From: Holdemanella porci
Lineage (GTDB): Bacteria; Bacillota_I; Bacilli_A; Erysipelotrichales; Erysipelotrichaceae
Direction of reading: 5' to 3'
DNA: 64,000 nucleotides
Assembly (NCBI RefSeq): GCF_009696075.1
Contig: NZ_VUMR01000003.1
Location: 1-64,000 of the forward strand
Positions within the stretch are counted from its first letter, which is position 1, and each line of letters opens with the position of its first letter. This document shows positions 27,052 through 52,930 of this stretch, piece by piece. The translations under genes and the position numbers were made by a program. The notes under the pieces were generated by a model. That model was not told the DNA's origin. It worked only from the letters and a program-made list of their open reading frames with translations, and searched no databases.

Positions 27052-27083
27052 ACTTCACACCTCTATTCATATGAATTTCATAT

Positions 27084-29624
27084 TTATGATTCGATTTTTT
27101 CACTTAGTTTTTTTAACTCATAAAGACAATCCATAGCATCTCTAGGAGTCATTGAGTCGATATCTAATTCTTGTAGTTGTTGTAAAAGTTGTGACTTTTC
27201 TGGTTGAACTTGATCCATCACAAATAAACTTGGTTGATAATTTTGATTGTTATCTTGATTTTCAAAATTCAATAAAAGTTGTGAAGCTCTGTCTAAAACC
27301 ACTTTTGGTAAATGTGCGAGTTTAGCAACATTGATACCATAAGATTTATCAGCCTTTCCTTCAATAACACGATATCTAAATTCAATCTCATTTTTTTCTT
27401 CACGAACATCAACATGTACATTGCGCATAGATTGATGTTCTTCCGCCAATTCCGTTAATTCATGATAGTGCGTCGAAAATAATGTTTTTGCTCCGATTGC
27501 TTCATCAATATATTCAAGCATTGCTTGAGCTAGAGCCATACCATCATAAGTTGCAGTTCCACGACCAATTTCATCAAATAAAATCAAGGAATGTTTTGTA
27601 GCATAACGTAAAGCTGTATTGGCTTCCATCATTTCCACCATAAATGTACTTTTTCCTGTCAATATATCATCCGATGCGCCGATTCTTGTAAAGATTCGAT
27701 CAAAAATTGGAAGTTGTGCTGTTTTAGCTGGAATAAAACTTCCCATTTGTGCCATAACTACAAGTAAGGCATTTTGTCGCATATATGTAGATTTACCACC
27801 CATGTTTGGTCCAGTAATCAATTGTATATGTTCTTCTTCTGACATTTTCCAATCATTTGAAACATATCTCTTCTTTTTCATACGATCATCCAAAATTGGG
27901 TGCTTACCCTCTACCACATTAACATTGTAACCTGGATGGAAAACTGGACATACATATCCTTTTTCACTGGCAAGAATTGCCAAAGATACAAGGACATCAA
28001 TTGTAGATAATGCTTGTGCACATGCATGCAAATCAAATAGATCTCTTTTGATTCGCATCAATAAATCATTAAACAAACTTTGTTCTAGTTTTACCTTTGT
28101 CTCTTGTGCATGTAGAATTTGTTCTTCTTTTTCTTTTAACTCTTGTGTAATGAATCGTGTCGCATTTGCAAGTGTTTGTTTCGGGTGATACCCAAATTCT
28201 TCTTTAATATTATCTAAATTTCCATTTCGAACTTCAATATAATATCCAAATACACGGTTATATCCTACTTTTAATGATTTAACCCCTGTTCTTTCACGTT
28301 CTTTCGCTTCTAATTCCAGAATAAAGTCTTTTCCTTGTTTTGCTATTTTTCGAACTTCATCCAATTCTTGATTGTATCCATCATTAAAGACTCCACCTTC
28401 TTTTAGTGTTAATGGTGGATTTTCTATAATCGCATTTTTTATTTCATTGTATAATTCTTGGCAGTCTGGCACATCATTAAATTCTGGATATGAATTCAAC
28501 GAAGACGCTAAATCTAAAATAGGCTTTGCGTGTTCTAATGTTGCTACAAGTTGAAGTACATCTCTAGGACTTGCATTCCCATAAGCCATACGACTCGCAA
28601 GTCTTTCCATATCATATACATACACTAAATGTTCTTTTAGATTTTCTCTTAACATAAAGTTTTCTTTTAAATCTTTGACCGCCACTTGTCTTTTCGCAAT
28701 CTTTTCTGCATCAATCAACGGATATTCAATCCATCGTTTTAACATTCTTGATCCCATTGCACTTTGACACTTATCCATAAAAGACCATAGACTTTCTGCC
28801 TTGGCATTCGAAGATTGACTTGAAACCAACTCCAAATGATTCTTTGTTTCATAATCCATAACAAGCACTTTATCTTTGTCCATAGATTCTATGGGTAAAA
28901 AATGATCGATCCGTTGTTTTTGTGTATCTTTTAAATAGGCCATTAAAAGTGCAAATGCTTCTTTCAAAGATTCGGATTCAATTCCATTTAATAAAGGTAG
29001 ATCCTCAGGATCAATATTTGCCTTTTTATGCTTTGAAATGAGCATTGTATCCATCTCTTCTAGGGCAGCCATCCATTTTTTATCCATTGTCATCGGACAA
29101 ACAAGCTCACTTACATTTTGTTCCAAAAGAGCCTTTTGTAGCGCCACCAAAGATCTTTGTAGCGTTTGATACTTTAATTCCCCTGTACTTAATTCACAAT
29201 ATATGACTGTAATTTCAAAACTTGAAACATCACAAGATGCCATATAATTTGTTGACTTAGCATCCATTGTTGCATCCATATAAGTTCCAGGTGTAATTAT
29301 TTTAATAATTCCTCGGTCCACCAATCCTTTTGCGCTAGACGGATCTTCCAATTGTTCGCAAATAGCCACTTTATACCCTTTTTTGACTAATCTTTGAATA
29401 TATGAATTTGCAGCATGAAAAGGGATACCACACATAGGTACCTTTTCTTCAACGCCAGCACTTCTTCCTGTTAATACTAAATCTAATTCTTGAGAAACCA
29501 ATTTTGCATCTTCAAAAAACATTTCATAAAAATCTCCTAAGCGGTAAAACAAAATCGATTCTGGATTTTCTTCTTTCATTTTCAAGTAATGCTGCATCAT
29601 TGGTGTATATTTTTTTTCTGCCAT
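27084..29624 (-). CDS. mutS: DNA mismatch repair protein MutS
   Basis: MutS recognises mismatches and loops. The 846-residue protein begins KKYTPMMQHYLKMKEENP and has the mismatch-contact motif LFYRLGDFYEMFFEDA (Phe-x-Glu). The ATPase domain has the P-loop GPNMGGKSTYMRQ, the Walker B FDEIGRGTATYDG and THYHELTEL. Full length for MutS1. It is the first gene of mutS-mutL-miaA-tcdA and is divergent from the FtsW/RodA gene. Confidence 0.97.
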   Translation of the reverse strand: MAEKKYTPMMQHYLKMKEENPESILFYRLGDFYEMFFEDAKLVSQELDLVLTGRSAGVEEKVPMCGIPFHAANSYIQRLVKKGYKVAICEQLEDPSSAKGLVDRGIIKIITPGTYMDATMDAKSTNYMASCDVSSFEITVIYCELSTGELKYQTLQRSLVALQKALLEQNVSELVCPMTMDKKWMAALEEMDTMLISKHKKANIDPEDLPLLNGIESESLKEAFALLMAYLKDTQKQRIDHFLPIESMDKDKVLVMDYETKNHLELVSSQSSNAKAESLWSFMDKCQSAMGSRMLKRWIEYPLIDAEKIAKRQVAVKDLKENFMLRENLKEHLVYVYDMERLASRMAYGNASPRDVLQLVATLEHAKPILDLASSLNSYPEFNDVPDCQELYNEIKNAIIENPPLTLKEGGVFNDGYNQELDEVRKIAKQGKDFILELEAKERERTGVKSLKVGYNRVFGYYIEVRNGNLDNIKEEFGYHPKQTLANATRFITQELKEKEEQILHAQETKVKLEQSLFNDLLMRIKRDLFDLHACAQALSTIDVLVSLAILASEKGYVCPVFHPGYNVNVVEGKHPILDDRMKKKRYVSNDWKMSEEEHIQLITGPNMGGKSTYMRQNALLVVMAQMGSFIPAKTAQLPIFDRIFTRIGASDDILTGKSTFMVEMMEANTALRYATKHSLILFDEIGRGTATYDGMALAQAMLEYIDEAIGAKTLFSTHYHELTELAEEHQSMRNVHVDVREEKNEIEFRYRVIEGKADKSYGINVAKLAHLPKVVLDRASQLLLNFENQDNNQNYQPSLFVMDQVQPEKSQLLQQLQELDIDSMTPRDAMDCLYELKKLSEKIES

Positions 29625-29646
29625 AAATCATCATCCTAACATGACT

Positions 29647-29681
29647 ATTATACCAAAAATTCGAGATAATTATGTTATAAT
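29647..29681. promoter_or_regulatory. Divergent -10 elements between mutS and the FtsW/RodA gene
   Basis: On the plus strand an extended -10 TGTTATAAT ends at 29681, serving the FtsW/RodA gene. On the minus strand TATAAT (29647-29652) lies 23 bases before the mutS ATG. -35 elements are weak on both sides. Confidence 0.45.
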
Positions 29682-29710
29682 TAAAAATACTGAATAAGGA
29701 GGTTTTGTTA

Positions 29711-30949
29711 ATGAAACAAACAATTCAATGGAAAAACAAATCCATCCAAATTGATATTGGTTTGATTCTAATTCTTATCCTTTTTGGTATGACAAGTTGT
29801 TTTGCACTATACAATTCTTTTAACCTGATAAAATTTGGAAGCGGAATTTCCTACTTATATCGTCAGTTATTTTGGTTTATTGTAGGATTTGTCGCAATGT
29901 TTTTCCTTTCAATTCTTCAAAACAAAAAAATATATTCATATATGGATATGGCTTATAAAATTTTAATGCTATGTCTTATTTATTTATTTTTCTCACGCTT
30001 ATTATTTAATTTAGTGGGTATCACACTTCCTTTTGCCAGTGAAGTTAATGGTGCTATTTCATGGTTTCAACTGCCTTTAATTGGTAGTTTTCAGCCAAGT
30101 GAATTTATTAAAATTGTTTTAATTGTTTTAGTCTCACAAATTATTGTTGATCATCAAAATGCACATCCAAATCCAACACATAAAGATGACTTGATGTTGT
30201 TGTGGGAAATCGCAAAAATATTATTCCCCCCATTATTTTTGATTATGACGCAACCAGATACTGGTGTTTGTATTATAATCGTATTCAATATTTTCATTTT
30301 AGTCTGTTGTAGTGGTATACGCAAAGAGTATATTATTGGTATTTTCGCCTTTATAGTTATTGTCGTTGGAACCTTCTTATTCTTATATTTCGAATACCCT
30401 AATATTCTTGCTTCATTTATATCTTCATACAAACTACAGAGAATTGATGCTTGGTTAGAACCAGAAAGTAACATTCGAGGTAGTTCGAACCAGTTATATA
30501 CTGCGTTATTGTCATTAGGTAGTGCCGGATTAACTGGATATGGTTTACAGGCAAATATCGTCTCTATTCCAGAAGCACATACCGATTTTATCTTTGCTGC
30601 TTTCGGACAATGCTTCGGCTTTATTGGAACAACATTTATCTTGTTATTATGTTTATTATTAGATATTTATTTATGTAAAATAGCTTACGCAACCAAAAAT
30701 AAAAAAGATCGTTTTGTTGTAATCGGTATTATCGCAATGCTGCTATATCAACAACTACAAAATACAGGGATGATTGTTGGATTACTTCCAATCACTGGTA
30801 TCACATTACCGTTGATTTCTTATGGAGGAAGTAGTATTCTTTCTTACTTCATTTCATTCGCAATTATTTTAAACATTTCACCGTCAACAAAAAGAACGAT
30901 TCGTTTGAATCGTTCAATAAGACGTAAGTTAATTAATATAAATTCTTAA
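29711..30949 (+). CDS. FtsW/RodA/SpoVE-family peptidoglycan glycosyltransferase
   Basis: A 412-residue SEDS protein with about ten membrane helices that polymerises lipid II together with a class B penicillin-binding protein. Motifs: FQPSEFIKIVLIVL, QPDTGVC, RIDAWLEPESN, AHTDFIFAAFGQCFGFIG (with the catalytic Asp) and LPITGITLPLISYGGSSIL. GGAGG lies ahead of the ATG at 29711. Sequence alone does not separate division (FtsW) from elongation (RodA) here, and no PBP gene is adjacent. Confidence 0.92.
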   Translation: MKQTIQWKNKSIQIDIGLILILILFGMTSCFALYNSFNLIKFGSGISYLYRQLFWFIVGFVAMFFLSILQNKKIYSYMDMAYKILMLCLIYLFFSRLLFNLVGITLPFASEVNGAISWFQLPLIGSFQPSEFIKIVLIVLVSQIIVDHQNAHPNPTHKDDLMLLWEIAKILFPPLFLIMTQPDTGVCIIIVFNIFILVCCSGIRKEYIIGIFAFIVIVVGTFLFLYFEYPNILASFISSYKLQRIDAWLEPESNIRGSSNQLYTALLSLGSAGLTGYGLQANIVSIPEAHTDFIFAAFGQCFGFIGTTFILLLCLLLDIYLCKIAYATKNKKDRFVVIGIIAMLLYQQLQNTGMIVGLLPITGITLPLISYGGSSILSYFISFAIILNISPSTKRTIRLNRSIRRKLININS

Positions 30950-31706
30950 GTCGAGTCAAATATGAATAAGTACGGTATCTAGCGAATCGTACTTTTTTTG
31001 TGCTCGAATGAATAATTATTTCAGAAATTGAATCTAAATCTCTTTCTAAGTGATCATAACATACATGTGCATAGGCAAGCGTATCTCCTCTAACTCCTAT
31101 TTTTCGCGTATCATTCATAATGTATGGATTTTTTAAAGAATGATGGTTCTTATGTGAGATAGGCATGATTTCACAAAGCTGTAAAACTTTTAAACCTGGA
31201 TCCACAACCGCACCTTTAAGTGCTCTATTCACAGCAGTAGAACCAGATTGTGTACTCACACAAATACCTGAGCCTTGACTACTTTCAAAAAATTCATCAT
31301 CTATCGAAATATCAAGAACCAATGTTTTAGCTAAACTCTCAATACGAACTTCATTTAATGCGTATAATGTTTCATTGACTTGAGGAAGGTCCATTTGAAG
31401 TAAATTAAACTCTTCAATTTTTGGCTGATTATGTTTTAAATCATAAACCAAATGATCCACTTCATCTTGTGTATAATCGGTAAAAAAGCCTAAATTACCT
31501 GTATGTATCGCAACGAATTGAATTTCATCCAATCTATCTATATAAGTGTGAATTGCTCTTAATAAAGTACCATCTCCTCCAACAGAAAAAATAACTTCAG
31601 ATTTTTCATCATTATATTCCCATCCAATATCTATACATTTTTTCTTTAGAGTTTCTGCAACTCTTTTTGAGTTATCGTCTCCTCTGTCTACTATACTGAA
31701 ACGCAT
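30933..31706 (-). CDS. nadK: NAD kinase
   Basis: NadK phosphorylates NAD to NADP. The P-loop-like VGGDGTLLRAIH is near residues 43-54, with HTGNLGFFTDY and the NEVRIE block in the middle, and SGSTAVNRALKGAVVDP near 155. About 257 residues, typical of Firmicutes. The ATG at 31706 has GAGGAAG upstream. It converges on the FtsW/RodA gene with a 17-base overlap. Confidence 0.95.
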   Translation of the reverse strand: MRFSIVDRGDDNSKRVAETLKKKCIDIGWEYNDEKSEVIFSVGGDGTLLRAIHTYIDRLDEIQFVAIHTGNLGFFTDYTQDEVDHLVYDLKHNQPKIEEFNLLQMDLPQVNETLYALNEVRIESLAKTLVLDISIDDEFFESSQGSGICVSTQSGSTAVNRALKGAVVDPGLKVLQLCEIMPISHKNHHSLKNPYIMNDTRKIGVRGDTLAYAHVCYDHLERDLDSISEIIIHSSTKKVRFARYRTYSYLTRLKNLY

Positions 31707-31760
31707 CAAATCACTTCCTCTTTTGTTAAATCTATTGTAACATATTTATGGGTGATATGA

Positions 31761-32306
31761 ATGTACGATAATATTGAAAGAGAATTGAAATTATTGATTA
31801 ATGAAGGAGTTTATAATGAATTACTCCATTCATATGATTTTCATAATCCAATAACACAGACAAATACATACTTTGATACAGAGAATCAAGATGTAAAAAA
31901 ACAACGTGGTGCAGTCCGGATTCGAACAATTCAAGATAAAAAAATATTCACTTTAAAAATCAGAAAAGATGAATACACACACTATGAATTCGAAAAAGAA
32001 ATATCTGCAGAAAATATTAATGAGATTGAAGACCCAGAAATATTAAATTGGTTCAAACATTATCAAATTCCTAAAAATTTACATCCGACAGCTAGTTTTA
32101 CTACATTAAGAAATGTATATGCATTTGAAAACGGAGAATTATGTTTAGATAAGACACATTATAAAAATCATACAGATTATGAAATTGAGTATGAATACAC
32201 ATCCGATCATGATGGAATCCATTTTTTTAATTCTATATTAGAAAAGTATGGCTTAAAATGGGTAAAAAATTGCCCTAGCAAAATTGCTAGAGCATTAAAT
32301 GATTAA
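31761..32306 (+). CDS. CYTH-domain protein (triphosphate tunnel phosphatase family)
   Basis: A 181-residue CYTH protein. The signature ExExK is seen as ERELKLL near the N-terminus; later basic/acidic strands of the tunnel (RGAVRIRTI, FTLKIRKDEYTHYEFEKEI, CLDKTHY, YEIEYEY) are kept. Relatives such as YjbK hydrolyse inorganic triphosphate or thiamine triphosphate; the substrate here is unknown. GGTGAT precedes the ATG. The gene ends tail-to-tail with the coiled-coil DNA-binding gene, overlapping by four bases. Confidence 0.88.
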   Translation: MYDNIERELKLLINEGVYNELLHSYDFHNPITQTNTYFDTENQDVKKQRGAVRIRTIQDKKIFTLKIRKDEYTHYEFEKEISAENINEIEDPEILNWFKHYQIPKNLHPTASFTTLRNVYAFENGELCLDKTHYKNHTDYEIEYEYTSDHDGIHFFNSILEKYGLKWVKNCPSKIARALND

Positions 32307-32851
32307 AATTTATGTGTTAAACGATAGAAGAAGGATTTAGAATTATATTCTTCTTCTTTTTTCTTATAATTTTCAATTTCTTCTTTATTTTTATTATAAA
32401 GTTCTTCTACTTCTTTTAATTTCTGATTTTCAGATTCTAATTCAGAAATTTTCTCATCTTTTGTTTGCGTTTCTAATAGGAAAGTTTGTTTACTTTTTTC
32501 GATTTCTAATTTAAGCTTTTCTTGATATAATTGTTCAATCTGGGCTTGTGCCTTCTCTTTTTCTTCTATAATGGCTTTAAGCTTTTCGTTTTCAAATCGA
32601 AGTTCCATTTCAACTGTAGATAATTCATGTTTTTCTTTTCTAAAATAAGTAGATAATCTTTCAACACCTTCAGCCTTAATTGTAATACGGCGAGTGGCCG
32701 GATTTTTGTATTTCCAATCTTTATCTGGATTATCTTTTACCAATTTTGCAATTGCTTTATCTACTGTATTTCTTGATTTATTGAAATGTTGGCATATCTG
32801 CGCAATATCCATATCATAATATACATCAATTGCTGATGCTTCTTCAGGCAT
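32303..32851 (-). CDS. HTH plus coiled-coil protein with a membrane-type C-terminal tail (RocS/RacA-like architecture)
   Basis: I do not recognise a named family with certainty. The protein has about 182 residues (ATG at 32851, preceded by GGAAGGGG). Residues 1-70 form a compact helix-turn-helix with IAQICQHFNKSRNTVDKAIAKL as two HTH helices split over the text, followed by a basic wing (KYKNPATRRITIKA). Residues 75-170 are a continuous Glu/Lys/Leu-rich coiled coil. The last residues, KSFFYRLTHKF, are aromatic and basic and could be an amphipathic membrane-binding tip. This order, DNA-binding head, rod, membrane tip, is that of streptococcal RocS and resembles Bacillus RacA, both of which tie chromosome DNA to the membrane or cell pole. 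It lies about 17 kb from oriC, directly next to a dense cluster of TTCATATGAA palindromes. Alternative: a plasmid-type DUF536/replication-accessory protein. Role is inference. Confidence 0.7.
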   Translation of the reverse strand: MPEEASAIDVYYDMDIAQICQHFNKSRNTVDKAIAKLVKDNPDKDWKYKNPATRRITIKAEGVERLSTYFRKEKHELSTVEMELRFENEKLKAIIEEKEKAQAQIEQLYQEKLKLEIEKSKQTFLLETQTKDEKISELESENQKLKEVEELYNKNKEEIENYKKKEEEYNSKSFFYRLTHKF

Positions 32852-32929
32852 ATTCACGTCCCCTTCCTATGAAATTCATAATAATAACCTAACGAGTCAC
32901 GATAAGTCTATCATAGTTTTGTCAAGAAT

Positions 32930-33445
32930 GCCATACCTATATATGAATTTCCTATATTATTTATTACTTTTTAAAATACTATTTAATTTTTCATATATTT
33001 CTCACATGAACCTTCATATATACTTATTTATAAAAATCACATACGATTTCATATTTTATATTTTCATATCTATATCACATGAATTTAATTATTCCATTCA
33101 TATGAAAAATTTTAGTTCATATAATTTAAAATATTCAATGAATTATTTCATATGATTAATGTACACATCATTTTACATTCATATGAACATCTTCATACAT
33201 ATTTTTAATTCATATTTAAATTCATATTTTACATTTTTTGTTTTTCTTATTTTCACATGAAAGTGATATTATAATAATTTGATATGAAAAATCATAATCA
33301 TTTCATATGAACGCTCAGAAGTATGTTTGTCCAGTTTCTTTCTCTCCATGTAATAATTATGTGAATGATCTTTATTTAAAGTACTATTATGTTGCGTTAT
33401 AAAATTTACTATATAAAATACTATTCTGTTCATATGAATAATGCA
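32930..33445. repeat. Non-coding AT-rich array of TTCATATGAA palindromes
   Basis: The gap between the coiled-coil gene and recR (32858-33529) has no credible gene. It contains four exact TTCATATGAA palindromes (33097-33106, 33178-33187, 33302-33311, 33429-33438), one-mismatch copies TTCATATGAT (33147) and TTCACATGAA (33252), partial copies TCACATGAA (33002, 33075) and TTCGATATGAA (about 33447), and about ten single half-sites TTCATA. Spacing is irregular (81, 124, 127 bases). Such clustering suggests a multi-site DNA-binding platform; the likely binder is the adjacent HTH protein (inference). Confidence 0.7.
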
Positions 33446-33486
33446 TTCGATATGAATTTTGCACTTCTTTTCCTATAAACATAAAA

Positions 33487-33521
33487 AATCGTATGAAAAA
33501 TCATACATACTTCATACGATT
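33487..33521 (-). terminator. Terminator of dnaX-recR
   Basis: AATCGTATGAA (33487-33497) and TTCATACGATT (33511-33521) form a perfect 11-base stem nine bases after the recR stop, followed on the minus strand by TTTTTATG. Confidence 0.75.
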
Positions 33522-33529
33522 AAGCATAT

Positions 33530-34127: not shown

Positions 34128-35891
34128 CTAATCTTCTTTTATTTCTATATTAGGAAACAAACTTTTCATATGATCTTCAATGCTCATATTATTTTCAGAT
34201 TCTTTGTCTTTTCTTTTTAAACGAACTTGATATGGTTCTGGAAGATTACCACTAATCATTCTTTCTTTAAACTCATCCTTTACACGAGATTGTTGTGTCT
34301 TATCTAATGCGAATACTTTCTTTGCTTTTCCTAATAACACTTCCATAAAATCTTCATATCCATAATTCAGTTCAAATTCATTTATTTGTTTCGCAAAGAT
34401 TTCATTAGATACACATACGACAATATAATTAGATCCACTAGCCATAATACTACTGTTTCTCAATGTAGCCGCATATTTTCCAAATTCTAAACTTGATATG
34501 AATTGTCCTATATTATTGAACTTATTCGTATCAATACTTCTTTCCATCTTTGTAGCTCCAACTAACAATTGAATGACAAATTCATCGTTTAATATGATTT
34601 TATTATTTGTGTTTTCTGACTGTTTTAATGTTTCACGTGAAACATCAGAAATTTCAAATTTTTCTAAAACCCCATTATTATCATCTTTTTGAATGTTTTT
34701 CTCAATTATATCTGAGTTATCAGAAGTATCGTCATATGATGTTTCATAGTTTTCTTCTTCCTCTATCTCTTTAAAATCATTATAATCTGAATCAATAATA
34801 TGTGTTTTCGATTCATATGAATAACTTGAAATCTTTAATAAAGAGGCTTCTAAGTAATCTAGTGCGTTAGATGCATATGTATATTTATTATATGTATCCA
34901 TTAATTCTTCCATACACTTAATTCTGAAATTAATAGGTGCTAATTTGAAATATTTCCGAATCATATCTTTGTTCATATCCGAAACTAGAGTTGAATTTTC
35001 CGAATAATCTAAAATCAGACTGTCCTTCAACATATGAATAAAGTCTGCTGTCAATCGCTTAATATCCATTCCCATATCTGAATATTTCTGAATATCTTTC
35101 ACAAAACTATCTACATCTTTTTTATATACTGAATAAAATAATTTTCCAATATCTTCAGATGTTACGACACCATAAATTTTACGAATATCATTCGCATCAA
35201 TATGAGATGAACAGTATGCAACACATTGATCCAATATGGATAAAGCGTCTCGCATTCCTCCATCAGCTAATTGAGCAATTAACGTTAATCCATTCTCATC
35301 AATTTCAATTCCTTCGTTTTTACAAACAACAGATAATCTATATTTAATGTCATGCATACTTACTTTATTAAAGTCAAATCTTTGACAGCGAGAAATAATA
35401 GTTGGCAAAACTTTATTCGGTTCTGTAGTTGCAAAAATAAAAATTACATGAGCAGGCGGTTCCTCGATTGTTTTTAACAATGCATTGAATGCTCCAGATG
35501 TCATCATATGAACTTCATCAATAATATAAATTTTATATTTTCCCTGCATTGGAGCATACTTCACTTTATCAATCAAATTTCTTACTTCATCTACACCATT
35601 GTTGCTGGCGGCATCAATTTCAATGATATCTGGATGACTTCCATTCGCAGCCATTTTACAGTTCTCACAAACTCCACAAGGAGCATCTTGACTATTTGTA
35701 CAATTTAATGTCTTCGCAAATATTTTTGCGATTGAAGTTTTTCCTGTTCCTCTAGGACCACAAAATAAATAAGCATGAGCAATACGATTTTGAACAATCG
35801 CATTTTTTAATGTCTGAATTATATGTGTTTGTCCAACAACTTCATCAAAATTCGTTGGTCTATATTTTCTATATAACGCTTGATATGCCAT
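34128..35891 (-). CDS. dnaX: DNA polymerase III gamma/tau subunit
   Basis: The 587-residue clamp-loader ATPase has the P-loop GPRGTGKTSIAKIFAK, a zinc-binding set (CTNSQDAPCGVCENC), the DEXH-like IDEVHMM and the sensor TTEPNKVLPTIISRCQRF. Residues 1-365 are the ATPase and collar; the remaining 220 residues are an acidic linker and tau-type domain, so a tau-length product is encoded. Two copies of the TTCATATGA-type palindrome lie inside the gene (34165, 34812). It probably formed an operon with tadA before an IS200/IS605 element entered between them. Confidence 0.95.
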   Translation of the reverse strand: MAYQALYRKYRPTNFDEVVGQTHIIQTLKNAIVQNRIAHAYLFCGPRGTGKTSIAKIFAKTLNCTNSQDAPCGVCENCKMAANGSHPDIIEIDAASNNGVDEVRNLIDKVKYAPMQGKYKIYIIDEVHMMTSGAFNALLKTIEEPPAHVIFIFATTEPNKVLPTIISRCQRFDFNKVSMHDIKYRLSVVCKNEGIEIDENGLTLIAQLADGGMRDALSILDQCVAYCSSHIDANDIRKIYGVVTSEDIGKLFYSVYKKDVDSFVKDIQKYSDMGMDIKRLTADFIHMLKDSLILDYSENSTLVSDMNKDMIRKYFKLAPINFRIKCMEELMDTYNKYTYASNALDYLEASLLKISSYSYESKTHIIDSDYNDFKEIEEEENYETSYDDTSDNSDIIEKNIQKDDNNGVLEKFEISDVSRETLKQSENTNNKIILNDEFVIQLLVGATKMERSIDTNKFNNIGQFISSLEFGKYAATLRNSSIMASGSNYIVVCVSNEIFAKQINEFELNYGYEDFMEVLLGKAKKVFALDKTQQSRVKDEFKERMISGNLPEPYQVRLKRKDKESENNMSIEDHMKSLFPNIEIKED

Positions 35892-36074: not shown

Positions 36075-36494
36075 ATTGATGAGGAAAAACATATAGAAGT
36101 TATTAAGGGTAGAGGATATGTCTATTCTATACAGTATCATATCGTATGGTGTGTAAAGTATCGTCGTGATGTCTTGAACGGAAAGGTTTCAACAAAATTA
36201 AAAGAGCTGCTGACTCAGATTTCAAAGGATAATGGTTTTCAAATTCTGGAAATGAATATAGAGGAAGATCATATCCGTATGCTGATCAATTGTACGCCGC
36301 AGCATTACATTCCAAATATTATAAAAGCTATGAAGGGTGTATCGGCCAGACTCTTGATGAAAGAGTTTGGGGATGATCTAAGATCCAAGTTATGGGGTGG
36401 ACATCTATGGAATCCTTCTTATTTTGTAGCTACAGTTTCTGAAAATACAGAAGAACAGATTATAGAGTATATAAGAAGTCAAAAAAGAAAATAG
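36075..36494 (+). pseudogene. tnpA: IS200/IS605 Y1 transposase TnpA, probably inactive
   Basis: The frame is open from 36015 to 36494 and reads EVIKGRGYVYSIQYHIVWCVKYRR, here in two overlapping pieces, the typical N-terminus of TnpA. The frame has no ATG, GTG or TTG before that homology; only a rare ATT (36075) or an internal TTG at 36174, which would cut off 30 or more conserved residues, is available. The catalytic HUH motif, usually DHVHLL, reads DHIRML, so the second metal-binding His is Arg. The catalytic Tyr region (LWNPSYFVATVS) is kept. The protein is therefore unlikely to cut DNA. Confidence 0.75.
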
Positions 36495-36517
36495 CGAATC
36501 AATAAGGAGAAATCATC

Positions 36518-40795: not shown

Positions 40796-40975
40796 CTGTG
40801 AAATAGCCACATTAGATCGGATTTATCATATGATTCTACTTATCTACAAATCATATTCAATATCACAATTATATATAGCATTAAAATATAAGAAAATCCA
40901 TCTATAATCCATTCCCATGAATACTAATAACTGAATAAACAAAAGTAATCCTAATAGAGAAAAGAAGGCACAAAT

Positions 40976-41430
40976 TCATTTTGTTGAATTATCATAATAC
41001 AAATAATATAAGCCAATTACTGCCATTGCAAAAATAGCACCAATACACAAAGGTCCTATAATGCTTCCATGACCAGAAATATAAATACATGCCGCAACAA
41101 AGATCATACATACTAAGGAAATTTTATCTGCTTTTCTATCTTGTCTTAAACTTTCTATTTTGTATACATCTAAATTGTGAATAATATTTGTGACTTATTC
41201 ATTCGAGTAATTCAAACTCTTTTTACATGATATCAATTCAGCACAGAAACATGCATAGATTCAGATAAGGCAGGTAACAATTGAATGTCTGGATATCCTA
41301 TTCCACGTTCCCGTCGGCTAACCGCTTTATCTGTGACATGTAGCTGTTGAACGAGTTCCATTTGCGTCATATTTTCTTTTCTTAACTTACAGATAAACAT
41401 TCCCATATCTTTTGCGTTCACATATATCAC
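40976..41430 (-). pseudogene. XRE-family regulator with membrane tail, decayed
   Basis: The first 65 residues hold an HTH_3 domain (GMFICKLRKENMTQMELVQQL, then VTDKAVSRRERG with RR in place of the usual KW) and end at a stop right after SVLN, where relatives continue SVLELL. In other frames the downstream DNA encodes DVYKIESLRQDRKADK and then two hydrophobic segments (SLVCMIFVAACIYIS, IGPLCIGAIFAMAVIGLYY) to a TGA at 40976-40978. Together they form an XRE regulator with a C-terminal membrane domain, a common Firmicutes type, broken by a frameshift and stops. The HTH part alone might still be made. Confidence 0.65.
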
Positions 41431-41530
41431 TTCTTTCTATAATAATTTATATACATTCTATCAAATTGGCAATCAACGTGTCATTTATATAGTGTATTCA
41501 GGTTATTTCTATCTGATTTATCATATGAAA

Positions 41531-41558
41531 AAGGAGTAAAATCATAATTCTACTCCTT
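41531..41558 (-). terminator. Terminator of gyrA
   Basis: AAGGAGTA (41531-41538) and TACTCCTT (41551-41558) form an 8-base stem right after the gyrA stop, followed on the minus strand by TTTTC. Confidence 0.75.
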
Positions 41559-41565
41559 ACATGCT

Positions 41566-44034
41566 TTATTCTTCAATATTTTCTTCTGATTCTGCTTCAG
41601 GCTCTTCATGATCTACCAATGTCATACGCGTTACTTTCGCATCTCCATTTAAGTTGATCAATCTTACACCTTGTGTATTTCTTCCGTAGATTCCTACATT
41701 CTCTAAAGCTACACGGATCATGATTCCATCACTCGCAACAATCATCGCATCTTCTTTACCAGTAACCGAACGCATACACATTAGCTTACCTGTCTTTTCT
41801 GTGATATTAATTGTGCTAACACCTTTTTTACCACGAGAAGTCAAACGATAATCTTCGAACTTACTACGCTTACCATACCCATTTTCAGAAACAACAAGAA
41901 CAGTGTCTCCTTCACTTGATAGTGCAGCACCTACAACTTCACTTCCATCACAATTGAATCCTAATACACCACTTGCACTACGTCCCATGATACGAACTTG
42001 ATCTTCATTGAATCGAACAGCTTTACCATTTGACCCTGAGATAATTACTTCATCTTGTCCTGTAGTTAATTTCACAAAACGCAATTCATCATCTGGTTTT
42101 AAACTAATCGCAATCTTACCATTACGATTGATATTTTCAAATTCAGATACAGATGTACGTTTCACAATACCATTTTTTGTAACAAATAATAATGTTTCAC
42201 TTTCATCATCCTTAGGAACAGCTACAAGAACATTTACTTTTTCACCTTTTTCCAAAGTCATTAAATTCACAATTGGAATTCCTTTAGATGTTCTAGATCC
42301 ACTTGGAACATTGTATCCTTTTAATCGATATACACGACCCTTATCTGTAAACAACAACAAGAAATCATGTGTCGACATCGAAATCATAGTATCAATAGAA
42401 TCTTCTTCATTTAATGTCAATGATTTGATTCCACGACCACCACGATTTTGAGCACGATATGTATCTACAAGCTGACGCTTAATATATCCAGACTCAGTTA
42501 ATGTGATAATCACATCTTCCACTGGAATTAAGTCTTCATCTTCCATATCAACAGAAGCATCACTAATTTCAGTTCTTCTTTCATCACCATATTTCTGATC
42601 AATTTCAGTTAAATCATCACGAATGATTTGAAGAACACGATCATGATTTGCCAAGATATCCTTCAAATCTTCAATCGTCAATAATAATTGTTGATATTCA
42701 TTTTCAATCTTATCTCGTTCCAATCCAGACAATCTTCTTAACTGCATTGCCAAGATAGCTTTAGCTTGAATCATGCTCAATCCAAACGCATCACATAAAT
42801 CTTGAGATAAACCGGCCTCATCTTTTTTAGAACTACGAATCATATGAATAACTTCATCGATATGATCCATCGCAATTCGTAAACCTTCTAAGATATGTGC
42901 ACGATCCTGTGCCTTCTTTAAATCAAACTGTGTTTTTCTTACAACTACATCAACCTGATGATCAATATAATCATGAATAATATCTTTTAAAGGCAATTGT
43001 TTAGGACGACCATTTTCAAGTGCCAACATATTGATACCAAATGAAGTTTGAAGTGGTGTTAATCTAAACAACTGATTTAAAATTACTTCTTCCTGCGCAT
43101 CCTTCTTTAGCTCCATTACAATACGAATACCTTCACGGTTACTTTCATCGTTTAAATAAGTAACACCTTGAATTGCTTTATCACGAATTAAAGAAGCCAT
43201 TTTAGTAATTAAGTTTGCCTTATTGACCTGATAAGGAATTTCATAGAAAATAATCTGTTTCTTTCCGTTTGATAATTCTTCAACACGATACTTAGAACGA
43301 ATCATAATGGATCCACGTCCTGTTTCAAATGCTTGACGAATACCTTTACGACCCAAAATAATTCCTCCAGTAGGGAAGTCCGGTCCTTTAATGACTTCCA
43401 TCAATTGAGGAACTGTAATATCCGGATCATCCATTACCGCAAAAATGGCTTGAATCGTTTCTGATAAATTATGAGGTGGAATATTTGTTGCCATACCAAC
43501 CGCAATACCCACAGCACCATTAATCAACAAGTTTGGAATACGACTCGGAAGCACAACTGGCTCGCTTTCTTCACCATCATAGTTTGGAATAAAATCGACC
43601 GTATCCTTTTGAATGTCACGCAGCATCTCCATAGAAATTTTTGACATACGAGCTTCCGTATAACGCATTGCCGCAGCTCCATCTCCATCTAGAGAACCAA
43701 AGTTTCCATGACCATCCACTAATGGATATCGATAAGAGAAATCCTGGGCCATACGAACCATTGCATCATATACAGCTGTATCCCCATGAGGGTGATACTT
43801 ACCAATAACTTCACCAACAATACGTGCACTCTTCTTATGTGCAACACCTGAAGTAATTCCCAATTGATTCATCGCATGCAAAATACGACGATGAACTGGT
43901 TTCATACCATCACGAACATCTGGTAATGCACGTGAAACAATAACAGACATTGAATAATCTAGAAAGGCTGTACGCATTTCTTTGGATATTTCAACATCTT
44001 CTACATAGTCATATCGCTTATTTTCTTCTTCCAT
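41566..44034 (-). CDS. gyrA: DNA gyrase subunit A
   Basis: An 822-residue subunit. The catalytic Tyr is in [11 protein letters not shown]. The quinolone-resistance region reads [19 protein letters not shown], with Thr at the position of E. coli Ser83 and Asp at that of Asp87; Thr is also natural in some Firmicutes, so no resistance is claimed. The C-terminal beta-pinwheel carries the GyrA box as [10 protein letters not shown], which separates it from ParC. It is 12 bases after gyrB and ends in an acidic tail. Confidence 0.97.
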
Positions 44035-44046
44035 AAGGACCTCCTA

Positions 44047-47086
<3,040 letters not shown>

Positions 47087-47090
<4 letters not shown>

Positions 47091-47290
47091 TTCACTTCAA
47101 TCCTTATTCCATTAGTTTCTACAATATCTCCATGGTAGATCTTTTTTCCACGACGATTTTCATTAACGCCGTTGACTAATACTTCCATGTTTGCTAAATA
47201 TTCCTTGGCCTGTCCACCACTATAGACAACATCGCAAGCTTTTAGCAATTGTGCTAATGTAATATACTCATCTATAAGTTCAAATTCCAT
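47087..47290 (-). CDS. yaaA: S4-domain RNA-binding protein (YaaA-like)
   Basis: A 67-residue S4-like protein of the kind found between dnaN and recF in Firmicutes. The S4 pattern is visible: YITLAQLLKACDVVYSGGQAKEYL, then VLVNGVNENRRGKKIYHGDIVE. It may bind RNA or ribosome parts; the exact role is not known. GAGGTATTTTC precedes the ATG, and a terminator separates it from dnaN. Confidence 0.88.
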
Positions 47291-47373
47291 GAAAATACCT
47301 CTTTTCGCACTATAATTATATCATAAAACGACATAAATAGCTATGCGTACAGAGATACCGATAAAAAAAGAAA

Positions 47374-47396
47374 CCGTTTAAAACGAGTTTAAACGG
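47374..47396 (-). terminator. Terminator between dnaN and the S4 gene
   Basis: CCGTTTAAA and TTTAAACGG form a 9-base stem; on the minus strand TTTCTTTTTTTATC follows. It lies eight bases after the dnaN stop and likely limits read-through into yaaA-recF-gyrB-gyrA. Confidence 0.8.
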
Positions 47397-47404
47397 CATT
47401 TTCT

Positions 47405-48523
47405 TTAATCATAACTACGAATTGGCACTAAAATCATTAAGACTGAAGCATCTTCCGGATTTGATACCTTGATAGGCTTCATAAATCCAGAAAATTCAAT
47501 TAATACTTTTTCGCATCCCAATGCCTTGATCGCATCCAACATATATGTACCATTACATGTCAATGAAATATCTTCTCCTTCATATTCACACTTAGTCAAT
47601 ACTTCATCAGAGTTTCCAATTTCACTTGAATACGTCTTAACATGAGTTTCTGCTGTTGAACATTCCAATTTAATTAAATGTACTTTATCATTGCGAATGA
47701 AGTTAGTACGATCAATTGTACCTGCAATTTCATATGAATCCACCAACATCTTAGATACACAACTTGTAGGAATAATTCTTTGTACATCTGGGAAAGTTCC
47801 ATCAATTAAACGAGTTTGGATAATTGTTTTATCAAATACAAACTGTGCTTTTTTAAAATCTGCATAAATATCGATTGTATCATCATCCGAAATAGAACGA
47901 ACAACCTCAGTTAAAGATTTACTAGGAATTGTGATATTAAAATCTTGACTTGAATTCAATTCAATTGTTTTTCTAGCTAAACGATATGAATCTGTTCCAG
48001 AACAATACAACATATTACTTTGTGAATTGAAGTTTACCCCCGTTAATACTGGACGTTGATCTTTGTCGCTGCACGCAAATGCAGTCTGTGAAACGATTGA
48101 TTTTAAATCTGTTGCCTTCAATACAAAATGATGATTAGGTTGTGTAAAATCAATATCAGGATATTCATTAGAACGAATACCATTTAAGTTAAATTGACCA
48201 TTATCACTAGAAATACGAACTAAAGAGTAGTCAATGACTTCAATTTCAATATTTTTACAATCCAACTTACGAACAATTTCTAACAAATACTTAGAATCAA
48301 TAATAATAGATCCTTCTTCTTCAATATCTAAATTATTCAATTCACCAGGGACAATTATAGTACGAATGGATATATTTGAATCACTACCAGTTAAAATCAT
48401 TGAACCATCTTTTAAATCAATACAAATACCTGATAGTGCAGGTAATGGAGAAAAGACACTAATAGCTCTAGAAACAATAGATAGCTTGTCATAAAAATAT
48501 TTTCGATCAATAGAAAAATGCAT
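47405..48523 (-). CDS. dnaN: DNA polymerase III beta subunit (sliding clamp)
   Basis: A 372-residue clamp with the three-domain repeat. The start MHFSIDRKYFYDKLSIVSRAIS and the end SVLMILVPIRSYD are typical, and AFACSDKDQRPVLTGVNF in the second domain is the conserved block. AAAAGGAGG precedes the ATG. A TTCATATGAA palindrome is inside the gene at 47729-47738. It follows dnaA with a 145-base gap that holds an AT-rich promoter-like region. Confidence 0.96.
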   Translation of the reverse strand: MHFSIDRKYFYDKLSIVSRAISVFSPLPALSGICIDLKDGSMILTGSDSNISIRTIIVPGELNNLDIEEEGSIIIDSKYLLEIVRKLDCKNIEIEVIDYSLVRISSDNGQFNLNGIRSNEYPDIDFTQPNHHFVLKATDLKSIVSQTAFACSDKDQRPVLTGVNFNSQSNMLYCSGTDSYRLARKTIELNSSQDFNITIPSKSLTEVVRSISDDDTIDIYADFKKAQFVFDKTIIQTRLIDGTFPDVQRIIPTSCVSKMLVDSYEIAGTIDRTNFIRNDKVHLIKLECSTAETHVKTYSSEIGNSDEVLTKCEYEGEDISLTCNGTYMLDAIKALGCEKVLIEFSGFMKPIKVSNPEDASVLMILVPIRSYD

Positions 48524-48668
48524 AAAATCCTCCTTTTATTAATATATTTATATATAAATTATAATATAAGGGACTGTATAAGTGTGTAAAAATTGCACAG
48601 ACCCTTTAAAAAACGTACTCTACGCTAATTTTTGGGATGTGGATTCCATGAGGAATACAGTGTATAAA

Positions 48669-50036
48669 TTAAGAATCCAAAGTGCTACGAATTTTTTCAA
48701 CAGCTGTTTTAAAAGCTTCATCTTTTTGAATCAATTTCTTAGCACGCTCATACGAACTAGAAATTGTCGTATGATCACGACCCCCTAATTCTTGCCCAAT
48801 AGATACATAAGATTTATGAAGCAAGTCTCTAGATAAGTAAACACAGATATGTCTTGCGTTCGCAATAAATTTTTGACGACATTTACCCTCTAAATCCTTG
48901 TAAGATAAGCCATAAAAACGTGTTACAGCCTTCTTTATCTTTTTAATTGTCAATTCATCCGATTGCGATACAATAGGTTCTTTAACTAATACTTTACGCG
49001 TAAAATCCATATCGATTACATCTGGATTAAATAGTGTCGCATTAAATATCAAGCGATTTAAAGTTCCCTCTAGATTTCTTACGTCATTTGAATATTTACC
49101 AGCTAAATAATCAATAACATCTTCGCTCATATTCACACTTTCTTCACGACCTTCGATTTTCTTCTTTAAAATCGCTTTGCTAGTTTCGAATTCTGGTTTA
49201 GAAATACTGATTGTAAGCCCAGAAACAAAGCGTGAAATTAAACGAGACTGTAATCCACTAATTTCACTAGGATGCATATCACTTGTGATAATAATCTGTG
49301 TATTCTTTTGAATCAACTGATTATAGACAGTGAAGAAGATTTCCTGACTGCTAGAATGTTGCTGCAAATTTTGAATATCATCAATTAAGAAATAATCACA
49401 GTCTAGAAGTTGTTCCTTGACTCTTTCTACAGTATTGCCATGAACATTTTTGGTTTTCATAGCTTCAATCAATAAAGAAACTAAATCTCCACTATACATA
49501 TAAATTACTTTACATTCAGGATGTTCCTTAGCTAAATAATTTCCCATCGCATGTAGTAAATGGGTTTTACCTAAGCCAGAATTACCATACAACATAAGGG
49601 GATTGAATGGATGAGAAGTCGTTTGTGTACAACAAGCTAAACATGCGGCATAAGCCTCCGCATTAGAATTACCTTCGACAAAATTTTCAAATGTATAAGA
49701 AGGATTGAATTTATTTTCTAATAAAACATTCGTTCTTTGTTTGACAACCTCTTCAGGCATCATCTTTTCCATCTCTCTTTGGTGGATAAACTGAATTGTT
49801 AATGTATCGCCCCAGACCTCACTTAAAGTGGATTCAAACAGTTCTTTTTCTTTCTGTTTCTTTAAAATACTAAAAGTGATTGTAGAACGATAGGCTACGT
49901 AAGCTATATTATCCTCTATTTTAAATAGAGTTGTTTTTGAAATCCATGAATTGAATGTATGACTATCAAAATAGTTGGATTCTTGTATTTTTTGTAAAGT
50001 TTCATTCCATATCGATGCATAAGACATGGTAGACAT
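48669..50036 (-). CDS. dnaA: Chromosomal replication initiator DnaA
   Basis: A 455-residue initiator. Domain III has the Walker A GNSGLGKTHLLHAMGNYL, Walker B FLIDDIQNL and the arginine-finger region LQSRLISRF. Domain IV has the helix-turn-helix ending GGRDHTTISSSYERAKKL, the DnaA signature. GCAAGGAGG precedes the ATG. Domain II is short. The upstream non-coding region holds several DnaA boxes. Confidence 0.97.
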   Translation of the reverse strand: MSTMSYASIWNETLQKIQESNYFDSHTFNSWISKTTLFKIEDNIAYVAYRSTITFSILKKQKEKELFESTLSEVWGDTLTIQFIHQREMEKMMPEEVVKQRTNVLLENKFNPSYTFENFVEGNSNAEAYAACLACCTQTTSHPFNPLMLYGNSGLGKTHLLHAMGNYLAKEHPECKVIYMYSGDLVSLLIEAMKTKNVHGNTVERVKEQLLDCDYFLIDDIQNLQQHSSSQEIFFTVYNQLIQKNTQIIITSDMHPSEISGLQSRLISRFVSGLTISISKPEFETSKAILKKKIEGREESVNMSEDVIDYLAGKYSNDVRNLEGTLNRLIFNATLFNPDVIDMDFTRKVLVKEPIVSQSDELTIKKIKKAVTRFYGLSYKDLEGKCRQKFIANARHICVYLSRDLLHKSYVSIGQELGGRDHTTISSSYERAKKLIQKDEAFKTAVEKIRSTLDS

Positions 50037-50061
50037 AGTAAAACCTCCTTGCAGTATTACT

Positions 50062-50090
50062 ATTATACACGATTTTTACACTTATCCCCA
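50062..50090 (-). promoter_or_regulatory. dnaA: dnaA promoter overlapping a DnaA box
   Basis: TATAAT on the minus strand (50062-50067) lies 25 bases before the dnaA ATG. About 17 bases upstream, the -35 position coincides with a DnaA-box-like TTATCCCCA (50082-50090), which would allow autorepression. Confidence 0.55.
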
Positions 50091-50359
50091 TTTATTCTTT
50101 TGGGATAAATTTTTTCCCAATGTGGACTTATGTGCAAAAAAAATGAACAAAATCGGGATAACTCACTTTATATTCATATTAAATATATAGAAAATCATTG
50201 ATAAACAAAGGCTCTCAATGACTTTTCCCAAGTTATACAGAGAATGGATTTAGAATGTCTTTATCCACTGTATAACTTATGATTTTATATACATTTTATA
50301 TGTATATTTTGAATTAAAATAAAATAGAATACAGATCCATGTATATAATATGTGGATAA
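50082..50359. other. Origin of replication (oriC) with DnaA boxes and an AT-rich unwinding region
   Basis: Between dnaA and the FemX gene lie a perfect DnaA box (TGTGGATAA, 50351-50359) and near-matches TTATCCACT (50261-50269), TTATACAGA (50233-50241), TCGGGATAA (50153-50161), TGGGATAAA (50101-50109) and TTATCCCCA (50082-50090). AGTTATACAG (50231-50240) and CTGTATAACT (50268-50277) are a perfect inverted pair. The stretch 50275-50350 is almost pure A/T and a good candidate for the unwinding element. Gene strand switches here, consistent with bidirectional replication. Confidence 0.88.
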
Positions 50360-50372
50360 TATATAGACCATT

Positions 50373-50400
50373 TTGTGTAAAACTAATAAAATGTTATAAT
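50373..50400 (+). promoter_or_regulatory. Promoter of the FemX-like gene
   Basis: TTGTGT (50373-50378), a 16-base spacer and TATAAT (50395-50400), starting 14 bases after the perfect DnaA box. It would fire away from the origin. Confidence 0.65.
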
Positions 50401-50433
50401 GAAGTGCAAGAATATAAAGGGGTATAAAAGTAT

Positions 50434-51648
50434 ATGTATATTTTTAAATCGAATATAAATCAAAAAGAATACGATTACTTTGTAGAAAATCATCCTAGTT
50501 GTAGTTTGCTTCAAAGCTACAAATGGGCAAATATAAAAAATAATTGGAACTCCATTTATACAGGGGTTTATGAAAAGGATACATTAGTAGCTGCTGGGTT
50601 GGTATTGATTCGTCCATTACCACTTTCTTTTTCTATGTTTTATTTGCCTAGAGGACCAATTTTAGATTATAAAAATAAAGAGTTATTGAATTTTTACTTT
50701 ACAGAATTAAAGAAAATTGCCAAAAAAGAACATTGTTTATTTATTAAATTTGATCCAAGTATTTTAATTTCAAGCTTCCACTTAGACGAAGAAAGAAAAG
50801 AATTTAATTATAAGGAAGAGTTTGAAAATATTAAATCATGTAAAGCCATTCATTATGGATTCAATAAAGATTTTGATACAACCATTCAACCAAGATACAA
50901 TATGGTAGAGTATGCGGATGATTTTGGAATGGACAATCTATCTAAAAAAGGGAAAAAGAATATTAAAATTGCTCAGAAACAAAATTTAGATATTCAATTT
51001 GGACACAAAGAATTATTAGAAGACTTTGATAAAGTCATGAAATGTACAGAGGAAAGAAAAGGAATTTCTTTACGAACAAAAGAGTATTATGAATTACTTT
51101 TAGATACATATGCAGATGATGCATTTATCACTTTAGCCTATTTCCATATCCACGACATGTTAAAAGAGACAAAAGAAAGATATGAACAGTGTTTACTAGA
51201 TTTAGAAAGTTGTCCAGAGAACGCAAAGAAGAAACGTTTTACCTTGGAAGAATTAAAAGACTCATTAGAGAAGAAAATCAGTAAATATGAAGAAGATGTG
51301 AAAACATATGGTGAAACAGTCTGTGTTTGTGGAACACTAACTGTAAAATATGGACATACATCAGAAATTTTATATGCAGGAATGAATGAAGATTTTAAAC
51401 GTTTGATGGGCCCCTATTTAACTTGGTATAAAACAATGGAAAAATGTTTTGAACTTGGATGCAAAACAAGTAATATGGGTGGAATTGAAGGAACTCTTAA
51501 GGGAGGACTTGTTGATTTTAAAGAAATATATCATCCTAGAATCAATGAATACATTGGTGAATTTGATATTCCGGTTAATTCATTATTGTATAATGTTGCA
51601 TTTAAATTTTATAAGAAGATTAAGGAAAGAAACGCAAAGCACAAATAA
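50434..51648 (+). CDS. FemX/MurM-like peptidoglycan aminoacyltransferase
   Basis: A 404-residue FemAB-family protein that would add an amino acid from aminoacyl-tRNA to the lipid II stem peptide. Domain 1 starts with YFVENHPSCSLLQSYKWANIK and has SMFYLPRGPILDY; domain 2 has SKKGKKNIKIAQKQNLDI and TEERKGISLRTKEYYELL. A coiled-coil insert (residues 240-290, Glu/Lys-rich) corresponds to the tRNA-synthetase-like arm of Fem proteins. The end SNMGGIEGTLKGGLVDFKE is the conserved Fem C-terminus. It lies directly on the right side of oriC. Which amino acid is used is unknown. Confidence 0.9.
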   Translation: MYIFKSNINQKEYDYFVENHPSCSLLQSYKWANIKNNWNSIYTGVYEKDTLVAAGLVLIRPLPLSFSMFYLPRGPILDYKNKELLNFYFTELKKIAKKEHCLFIKFDPSILISSFHLDEERKEFNYKEEFENIKSCKAIHYGFNKDFDTTIQPRYNMVEYADDFGMDNLSKKGKKNIKIAQKQNLDIQFGHKELLEDFDKVMKCTEERKGISLRTKEYYELLLDTYADDAFITLAYFHIHDMLKETKERYEQCLLDLESCPENAKKKRFTLEELKDSLEKKISKYEEDVKTYGETVCVCGTLTVKYGHTSEILYAGMNEDFKRLMGPYLTWYKTMEKCFELGCKTSNMGGIEGTLKGGLVDFKEIYHPRINEYIGEFDIPVNSLLYNVAFKFYKKIKERNAKHK

Positions 51649-51705
51649 TTTAAGTATGATTTAAGTACGACTATCTATTATATCCTAGTAAGGATGGAAT
51701 TTGAT

Positions 51706-52930
51706 ATGTCGTATTTATTTTTTAAAGATATAAACCGTGAAGAATTTGATGAATTTGTGAAAAAACATGAATATTGTAATTTACTACAAAGCTATAATTG
51801 GGCAAAAGTAAAAAGTAATTGGGATCACATGTATACAGGTGTGTATAAAGACAATGTATTATTCGCAACAGGTTTAGTGTTGATCAAAAGATTGCCATTA
51901 TCATTTTGTATGTACTATTTACCCAGATGTCCTATTATGGATTATAGGGATAACGTGCTTGTTCAATATTATTTTGATCAATTAAAAAAGGTCGCCAAAA
52001 AAGAATATTGTATCTTTATTAAATTTGATCCAGCTATTCATGTTAATGATTATGATTCAAAATCATATAATACAAATCGATACGAAGATACAGATACATA
52101 TTTAAAAATATTCAAAAGCTGTAAAGCTATACATCATGGCTATACAATGAGTATTGCGGATACAGTACAGCCTAGATTTCAATCGAATGTATATTCATAT
52201 GAAAATATAGAGGAAACATTGCCAAAACATACGAAACGTTTAATTAAGGATGCAGAGCGTAGAAATGTTCAAATTATTCATGGACAAGGTGAATTGCTAG
52301 ATGAATTCAGCCGACTTGTAGAATTGACGGAATCAAGAAAAGGCGTTGCGTTAAGAGATAAAGAATATTTCAAGACATTATTAGAAAATTATTCTGAAGG
52401 AAGCGTCATCTTTTTTAGCGACTTGCAACGTATATCAATTAGATCAAGAGGCAAAGGAAAAGAAGATACAGCTTGAAAAAGAAATGGCTGCAACACCTGA
52501 AAATTCTAAAAAGAAGTTACATCGTTTAGAAGATCAGTTACAAAGTGTAAATAAAGATATTAATGAATATAAGAAAATTTTTGATGAATTTGGTCAAGAA
52601 GATAAAGAAATTGCGATTGCAGGTATTTTAAGTATTCAATTTGGAAATACTTGTGAAATGTTGTATGCAGGAATGGACGAAAGATTCAAAAAATTTATGC
52701 CTCAATATAAAGAATATGTTGAAAACTTTAAATGAGCATTTGATAGAGGATGTTTATGGAGTAATATGGGTGGTGTAGAAGGATCTTTAGATGATGGATT
52801 GACAAAATTTAAAGATAACTTTAATCCAACTATAAATGAAATGATAGGAGAATTTGATATACCGGTTTATACATTTATGTATCGTTTAATTCAAAAAGTA
52901 TATGAAATACTGAAAAGTAAGCATAAGTGA
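51706..52930 (+). pseudogene. Second FemX/MurM-like gene, broken by a frameshift and a stop
   Basis: A tandem paralogue of the preceding gene (same motifs: NLLQSYNWAKVK, CMYYLPRCPIMDY, TESRKGVALRDKEYF). The frame shifts at a run of six T at 52411-52416; the correct sequence continues one frame over as LATCNVYQLDQEAKEKKIQ. A TGA at 52733-52735 then stands where the family has an aromatic residue, probably Trp (TGG to TGA), and the last segment SNMGGVEGSLDDGL is in frame after it to the TGA at 52928-52930. All parts are present and little else has changed, so the damage is recent. AAGGATGG precedes the ATG at 51706. Confidence 0.88.

Follow-up and report, generated by a model that had tools for sequence, protein, structure and literature searches.

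The window, by which we mean the whole stretch of 64,000 nucleotides analysed here, is part of a 91-kb contig of Holdemanella porci. It carries a reverse-strand gene flanked by a CYTH-domain gene and recR, with a noncoding gap rich in palindromes between the gene and recR (Table 1). Beyond recR follow dnaX, the SRP RNA, serS, gyrA, gyrB, recF, dnaN and dnaA, in that order; neighbouring genes were named by profile match where available and otherwise by eye from their open reading frames. Given the position of dnaA and a GC-skew minimum at ~49–50 kb, oriC lies ~17 kb from the array, in agreement with the earlier note, which had placed the locus near the origin. The array-to-dnaA distance is 14–19 kb in 13 of 13 genomes, and the order dnaX, recR, gap, gene, CYTH is retained in 22 related loci, as far as each locus reaches. 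The counterpart in H. biformis DSM 3989 is 97% identical to the window protein. The limits first drawn for the locus, 32303–33445, were slightly narrow, as the gap ends only at 33529 and clustered sites occur over ~10–20 kb on each side. Elsewhere in the window we observed a T-box leader (40542–40752; Rfam, 132.7 bits), presumably upstream of serS; an IS200/IS605-like pair between dnaX and a tadA-like gene (36174–37612; TnpA-like and TnpB-like frames of 106 and 364 aa, named from their translations); and, beside oriC (50434–52476), two adjoining similar frames of 404 and 260 aa that by eye resemble FemAB-type peptidyltransferases, the second being perhaps truncated.

Table 1 Features of the locus and its surroundings, in window positions
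Feature	Position	Strand	Basis
Gene of the wHTH/coiled-coil/amphipathic-tip protein	32303..32857	-	Conserved ORF in 22 loci, 65–97% identical to window protein
Near-invariant amphipathic, MinD-like tip YNSKSFFYRLTHKF, residues 171–184	32306..32347	-	Conservation, moment, charge
Long helix/coiled-coil rod, residues 62–170	32348..32674	-	AF2 model
Winged helix-turn-helix head, residues 10–61	32675..32830	-	AF2 model and column conservation
Noncoding AT-rich gap (22% GC) up to recR, with phased TCATATGA palindromes	32858..33529	.	Orthologous gap in 22 loci
TTCATATGAA site	33097..33106	.	
TCATATGA site	33148..33155	.	
TTCATATGAA site	33178..33187	.	
TTCATATGAA site	33302..33311	.	
TTCATATGAA site	33429..33438	.	
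Four TCATATGA sites within dnaX: 34166, 34732, 34813, 35504	34166..35511	.	0–5 kb zone in excess over synonymous shuffles
Perfect parS TGTTTCACGTGAAACA inside dnaX, codon ~419	34629..34644	.	Sole parS in this genome, up to 1 mismatch
Flanking TCATATGA sites, other side: 27067, 31830	27067..31837	.	
Outer TCATATGA sites: 40826, 41521, 42840, 47730, 52195	40826..52202	.	
dnaA (oriC marker)	48669..50036	-	TIGR00362, 403.8 bits

The protein ends in KSFFYRLTHKF, as the earlier note states, and is 184 aa long from a GTG start or 182 aa if translation begins at the ATG at 32851. Its AF2 model (mean pLDDT 84.7) bears out the helix-turn-helix head and coiled-coil rod described there. The head is predicted to comprise two helices (residues 18–25 and 29–42) and two strands (49–51 and 58–60), with a mean column conservation of 0.90; its Foldseek matches among PDB structures include DNA-bound RacA (5i44; probability 0.98, TMt 0.64, at a weak E of 0.17). 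A single helix is predicted over residues 62–183, with confidence dropping at the tip. The C-terminal half of the rod differs in sequence and length between relatives (mean conservation 0.57 for coil residues 136–168), while the last 16 residues (169–184) reach 0.94 and end in the near-invariant tip NSKSFFYRLTHKF; conservation is thus concentrated at the two ends of the protein, head and tip. Compared with the MinD tip of E. coli, KKGFLKRLFGG, that of the window protein has a hydrophobic moment of 0.50 versus 0.41 and a charge of +3 versus +4. By this comparison the tip likely binds the membrane, or possibly a protein partner in place of lipid.

No Pfam or NCBIfam family fits the window protein or its 22 members. 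Nothing beyond weak HTH similarities and coiled-coil matches attributable to chance came from sequence searches of Pfam, NCBIfam, PHROGs and the PDB; the profile search of the PDB by sequence returned no RacA, and no unrelated metabolic regulator matched the protein in the profile searches. A fold search among viral models yielded only short wHTH domains, such as those of excisionases, at E>0.01. DUF536 (PF04394, RocS-like_C), a segment with three conserved glutamines, is absent from the families found at E≤1 for the window protein and from the 25 most-matched families across the 22 members, and its profile finds no match in 10 gene-bearing genomes, while Lactococcus lactis does match. Likewise, the ParB_N domain (PF02195) matches only two other genes of this genome, not the array-adjacent gene. 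A second ParB_N-domain protein, in a 331-aa frame, is encoded elsewhere in the genome (G000:C2:6908–7192, L050).

The gap is AT-rich and 0.2–1.5 kb long across relatives. That of the window holds exactly four TTCATATGAA decamers where shuffles predict 0.01, together with 8 copies at one mismatch (0.29 expected) and 20 at two mismatches (2.3 expected), which confirms the four exact palindromes and near-copies reported earlier. Counted as octamers, it contains 5 exact TCATATGA and 3 one-base variants, TCACATGA or TCATGTGA. The comparison with related genomes that the earlier note had proposed extends this pattern: 75 TCATATGA occur in 20 of 22 gaps, versus 2.5 expected, no other palindrome stands out in the 22, and the gene-lacking relatives have no array. 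The remaining two gaps (L040 and L041) show no significant excess. H. biformis has none of the exact decamers, yet most of its octamer and variant sites lie at the same distances from the gene as in the window; since the decamer flanks diverged while these positions stayed, the octamer TCATATGA is the retained unit. Chance AT-richness as the source of the sites is ruled out by the shuffles and by control palindromes, and an Rfam search of the gap found no RNA.

Successive sites in the gaps are regularly spaced, at 29–33, 41–42, 50–54, 73, 84, 94–96 and 104–106 bp, with longer classes at 124–127, 136–137, 146–147 and 157–158 bp and one spacing at 65 bp. A scan from 8 to 14 bp gives a best period of 10.50 bp (R 0.83, n=46 spacings). 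With one genome per group, R is 0.826 (n=32), above the maximum of 0.62 among 5000 random sets for which the best period was likewise sought set by set. Phasing is slight for A/T words taken from these gaps, which rules out a generic AT periodicity. The sites thus all lie on one face of the helix, an arrangement to be expected if they serve a co-operative complex or a common surface.

The sites are not confined to the gap, nor are they spread evenly over the genome, an even spread being ruled out by whole-genome counts of the palindrome, which cluster at the locus. In the 13 genomes, TCATATGA reaches 31 per 10 kb in the gap, ~100-fold above the ~0.3 of control palindromes, and then 6.8 per 10 kb at 1.5–5 kb on the oriC side and 2.8 per 10 kb within 5 kb on the side away from oriC; beyond 20 kb it exceeds the control level by no more than a factor of two to three. 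The gap, and not oriC, forms the centre of the peak, and the density is near background at the distance of dnaA. In this genome, 16 of 62 sites lie within 20 kb of the array (1.2 expected), compared with 12 of 76 in OPF54 (1.0), 6 of 37 in Allobaculum mucilyticum (0.5) and 5 of 21 in Allo2 (0.3), with binomial p from 4e-14 to 1e-5 in these four genomes. Many outlying sites are intragenic. Within 10 kb, coding sites exceed the mean of synonymous-codon shuffles in all four zones, with 20 versus 7.7 and 31 versus 14.6 in the two nearest and 10 versus 5.8 and 6 versus 3.0 in the others; 0 of 60 shuffles reached the observed count in any zone, and no such excess is seen beyond 10 kb. As the near-zone coding sites exceed the synonymous shuffles, they are kept for their own sake and not by the encoded proteins. 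The case for the array as a functional element of the chromosome, maintained by selection, is strong.

A second element adjoins the array. In 13 of 13 genomes dnaX contains a perfect parS around codon 403–422, 1.6–2.8 kb from the gene, and with one mismatch allowed it is the sole site in 9 of the 10 gene-bearing genomes searched, A. mucilyticum having one extra near-parS. By the same search, ten gene-lacking relatives have 2–4 parS-like sites each. Three relatives (G007, G052 and G055) have a parS in dnaX as well as one lying further upstream, and this second site may have disappeared from the gene-bearing clade, as the comparison suggests. Among the gene-lacking relatives that were examined, the next gene follows closely after recR, mostly within 80 bp; six of them have no TCATATGA in the 2 kb around the recR end and no cluster, and in gene-lacking G052 the sites are dispersed over the genome. 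The array thus strictly co-occurs with the gene, and this, together with their adjacency, makes it very likely that the neighbouring protein reads TCATATGA. At L078:9335–11696 (C57 73335–75696), rsmG, parA and parB directly adjoin with no separate noc between them; the ParB encoded there gives its top score on the NCBIfam Noc model, but below the cut-off.

Relatives of the gene were found in 15 of 146 close genomes, and a profile search of 316 genomes of the order located it in 24, in conserved synteny; outside the family, a class-wide profile search of a 395-genome sample gave no homologue. A tree of 19 genomes built on five genes places the 13 gene-bearing and the 6 gene-lacking ones on opposite sides of a branch with support 1.00, consistent with one gain or one loss. 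A relic of a plasmid partition system, which the earlier note had also considered, finds no support in these data: the locus is syntenic throughout the clade and tblastn found no homologue in plasmids or phages, so that a mobile origin is without support. In Allobaculum sp. Allo2 (G146/G334, L048) the reading frame of the gene is disrupted while the sites and parS remain, which may reflect a recent loss, the gene then being perhaps dispensable there, or an assembly error. The gene was also not matched in a nearly complete draft (G056, genus g56) whose congeners G260 and G261 carry it, possibly through loss or an assembly gap.

The layout of the protein recalls three described systems. RocS of Streptococcus pneumoniae is likewise chromosomal and combines an N-terminal (winged) HTH, a dimeric coiled coil and a C-terminal MinD-like amphipathic helix (PMC11500499, PMC13042908), and the AF2 model here has the same order of wHTH and coiled coil; in both proteins, model confidence is lost at the tip. 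The tip of RocS has also been compared with that of MinD (PMC11500499, PMC13042908), and its helix needs oligomerisation of the protein to hold the membrane (PMC11500499). However, RocS carries DUF536, works in a cell without ParA and is reported to bind DNA non-specifically (PMC7022226), whereas the present protein has no detectable DUF536, its genome encodes ParA and ParB, and it adjoins a phased site array. Par of the staphylococcal plasmid pSK1 is a partition system of one protein, which is believed to recognise specific repeats in the DNA and consists of a wHTH head, a coil and a RocS/MinD-like C-terminus (PMC11500499), and a repeat array lies beside the gene in both cases. In contrast to plasmid-borne, DUF536-containing pSK1 Par, the gene described here is chromosomal, lacks DUF536 and sequence matches to plasmids, is syntenic with recR and dnaX, and has a parS beside it and a halo of outlying sites. 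RacA of Bacillus subtilis links DNA to the pole through an HTH head, a C-terminal coiled coil and motifs that are dense near the origin (PMC6593407). The head resembles its structure 5i44, at E 0.17, and the TCATATGA cluster, 14–19 kb from dnaA, resembles the origin-dense RacA motif, with a different distribution. RacA has its role in sporulation, by way of DivIVA, and the ram sites to which it binds occur chromosome-wide besides the origin (PMC6593407), unlike the one locus-centred cluster beside the gene and the short amphipathic tip seen here. The protein is thus similar in layout to RocS, pSK1 Par and RacA, and sequence comparison does not support membership in any of the three; in particular, DUF536, a defining segment of RocS and pSK1 Par, is not found in it. 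Of the RocS/RacA likeness first proposed, a RacA-like wHTH fold remains, at a weak E-value; by sequence the protein belongs to neither family, there being no DUF536 and no family match.

We read the locus as a single-protein chromosomal centromere combined with a membrane tether, whose protein would bind DNA and membrane and act in segregation, with a probability of roughly two in three. That the whole forms a segregation or anchoring device is inferred from its position at parS and oriC, the coding sites, the halo-like decay of site density and the RocS/RacA-like layout. The centromere-like or anchoring role suggested in the earlier note gains support from the locus-centred clustering, the phasing, the selection of coding sites, the adjacency of parS and the co-occurrence of array and gene. 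In the proposed mechanism, a protein dimer would bind each palindrome through two winged HTH heads and, because neighbouring sites are whole helical turns apart, parallel coiled coils would project from one face of the DNA. The clustered amphipathic tips, which share the MinD/RocS-like pattern K[SG][FL]F.RL, would then hold by avidity to the inner membrane or to a partner bound there. Such binding would anchor the domain of parS and oriC to a place on the membrane and help sister origins to segregate alongside ParABS, while the sites within ~10 kb would enlarge the bound domain.

A division-site factor acting in nucleoid occlusion, in the manner of Noc or SlmA, would share much of this logic: a DNA-bound protein recruited to the membrane would inhibit division. 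Noc uses specific palindromes and a short membrane-binding helix to bring DNA to the membrane (PMC4331003, PMC8429893), as proposed here for the array and the membrane-binding-like tip, and there is no separate noc at its usual place, since parA and parB directly follow rsmG. Noc, however, is a ParB-family CTPase whose sites are scattered round the chromosome (PMC4331003), whereas the present protein has no ParB/Noc domain and its sites are concentrated at one locus, so that this explanation is unlikely. Slightly less probable is simple autoregulation, already raised in the earlier note, in which the protein would repress its own gene and the array would be a multi-operator control region. The sites do lie upstream of the gene, the nearest at 99–148 bp from its start in several genomes including this one; but the gap far exceeds the length that an operator needs, selected sites also occur within genes, dnaX among them, to a distance of ~10 kb in either direction, and a repressor needs neither the rod nor the amphipathic tip. 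Autoregulation may occur as well, and leaves the sites in neighbouring genes unexplained.

The array might also consist of degenerate ParB sites bound by ParB, with the gene a bystander or accessory: TTCATATGAA and the parS core TTCACGTGAA have the outer bases TTCA..TGAA in common, TCATGTGA and TCACATGA are the commonest centre changes (19 copies), and parS adjoins the array. This is very improbable, as gene-lacking relatives with a ParB-type parS have no array, the gaps hold only 2 TCACGTGA versus 75 TCATATGA, and the gene-bearing genomes, all with the array locus, fall on one side of a fully supported split. Equally remote is a control of replication initiation in which the protein would hold or sequester the origin region at the membrane and so time DnaA action, for although the proximity of dnaA in all 13 genomes and the possible membrane tip would suit it, the array and parS form the centre of the cluster, and at dnaA the density of sites is near background.

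The single-protein centromere and tether may represent an undescribed type. Chances are even that an Erysipelotrichaceae lineage acquired, on its chromosome, a partition system of one protein with a phased array beside parS, that its parS sites, once two or more, were reduced to usually one, and that the origin domain became tethered to the membrane, part of the ParABS task being shared or taken over. How bacteria with ParABS position and hold their origins has been worked out in a few models only, and none of the RocS-type tethers described to date has a recognised site on the chromosome for its DNA binding. Here a candidate protein, its site and the chromosomal domain can all be read from the sequence, and sequence-directed tethering of the origin to the membrane is thus testable in culturable gut anaerobes or by rebuilding it in Bacillus subtilis. 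The drop in parS number, together with the gain of the array, would amount to a natural experiment in centromere rewiring.
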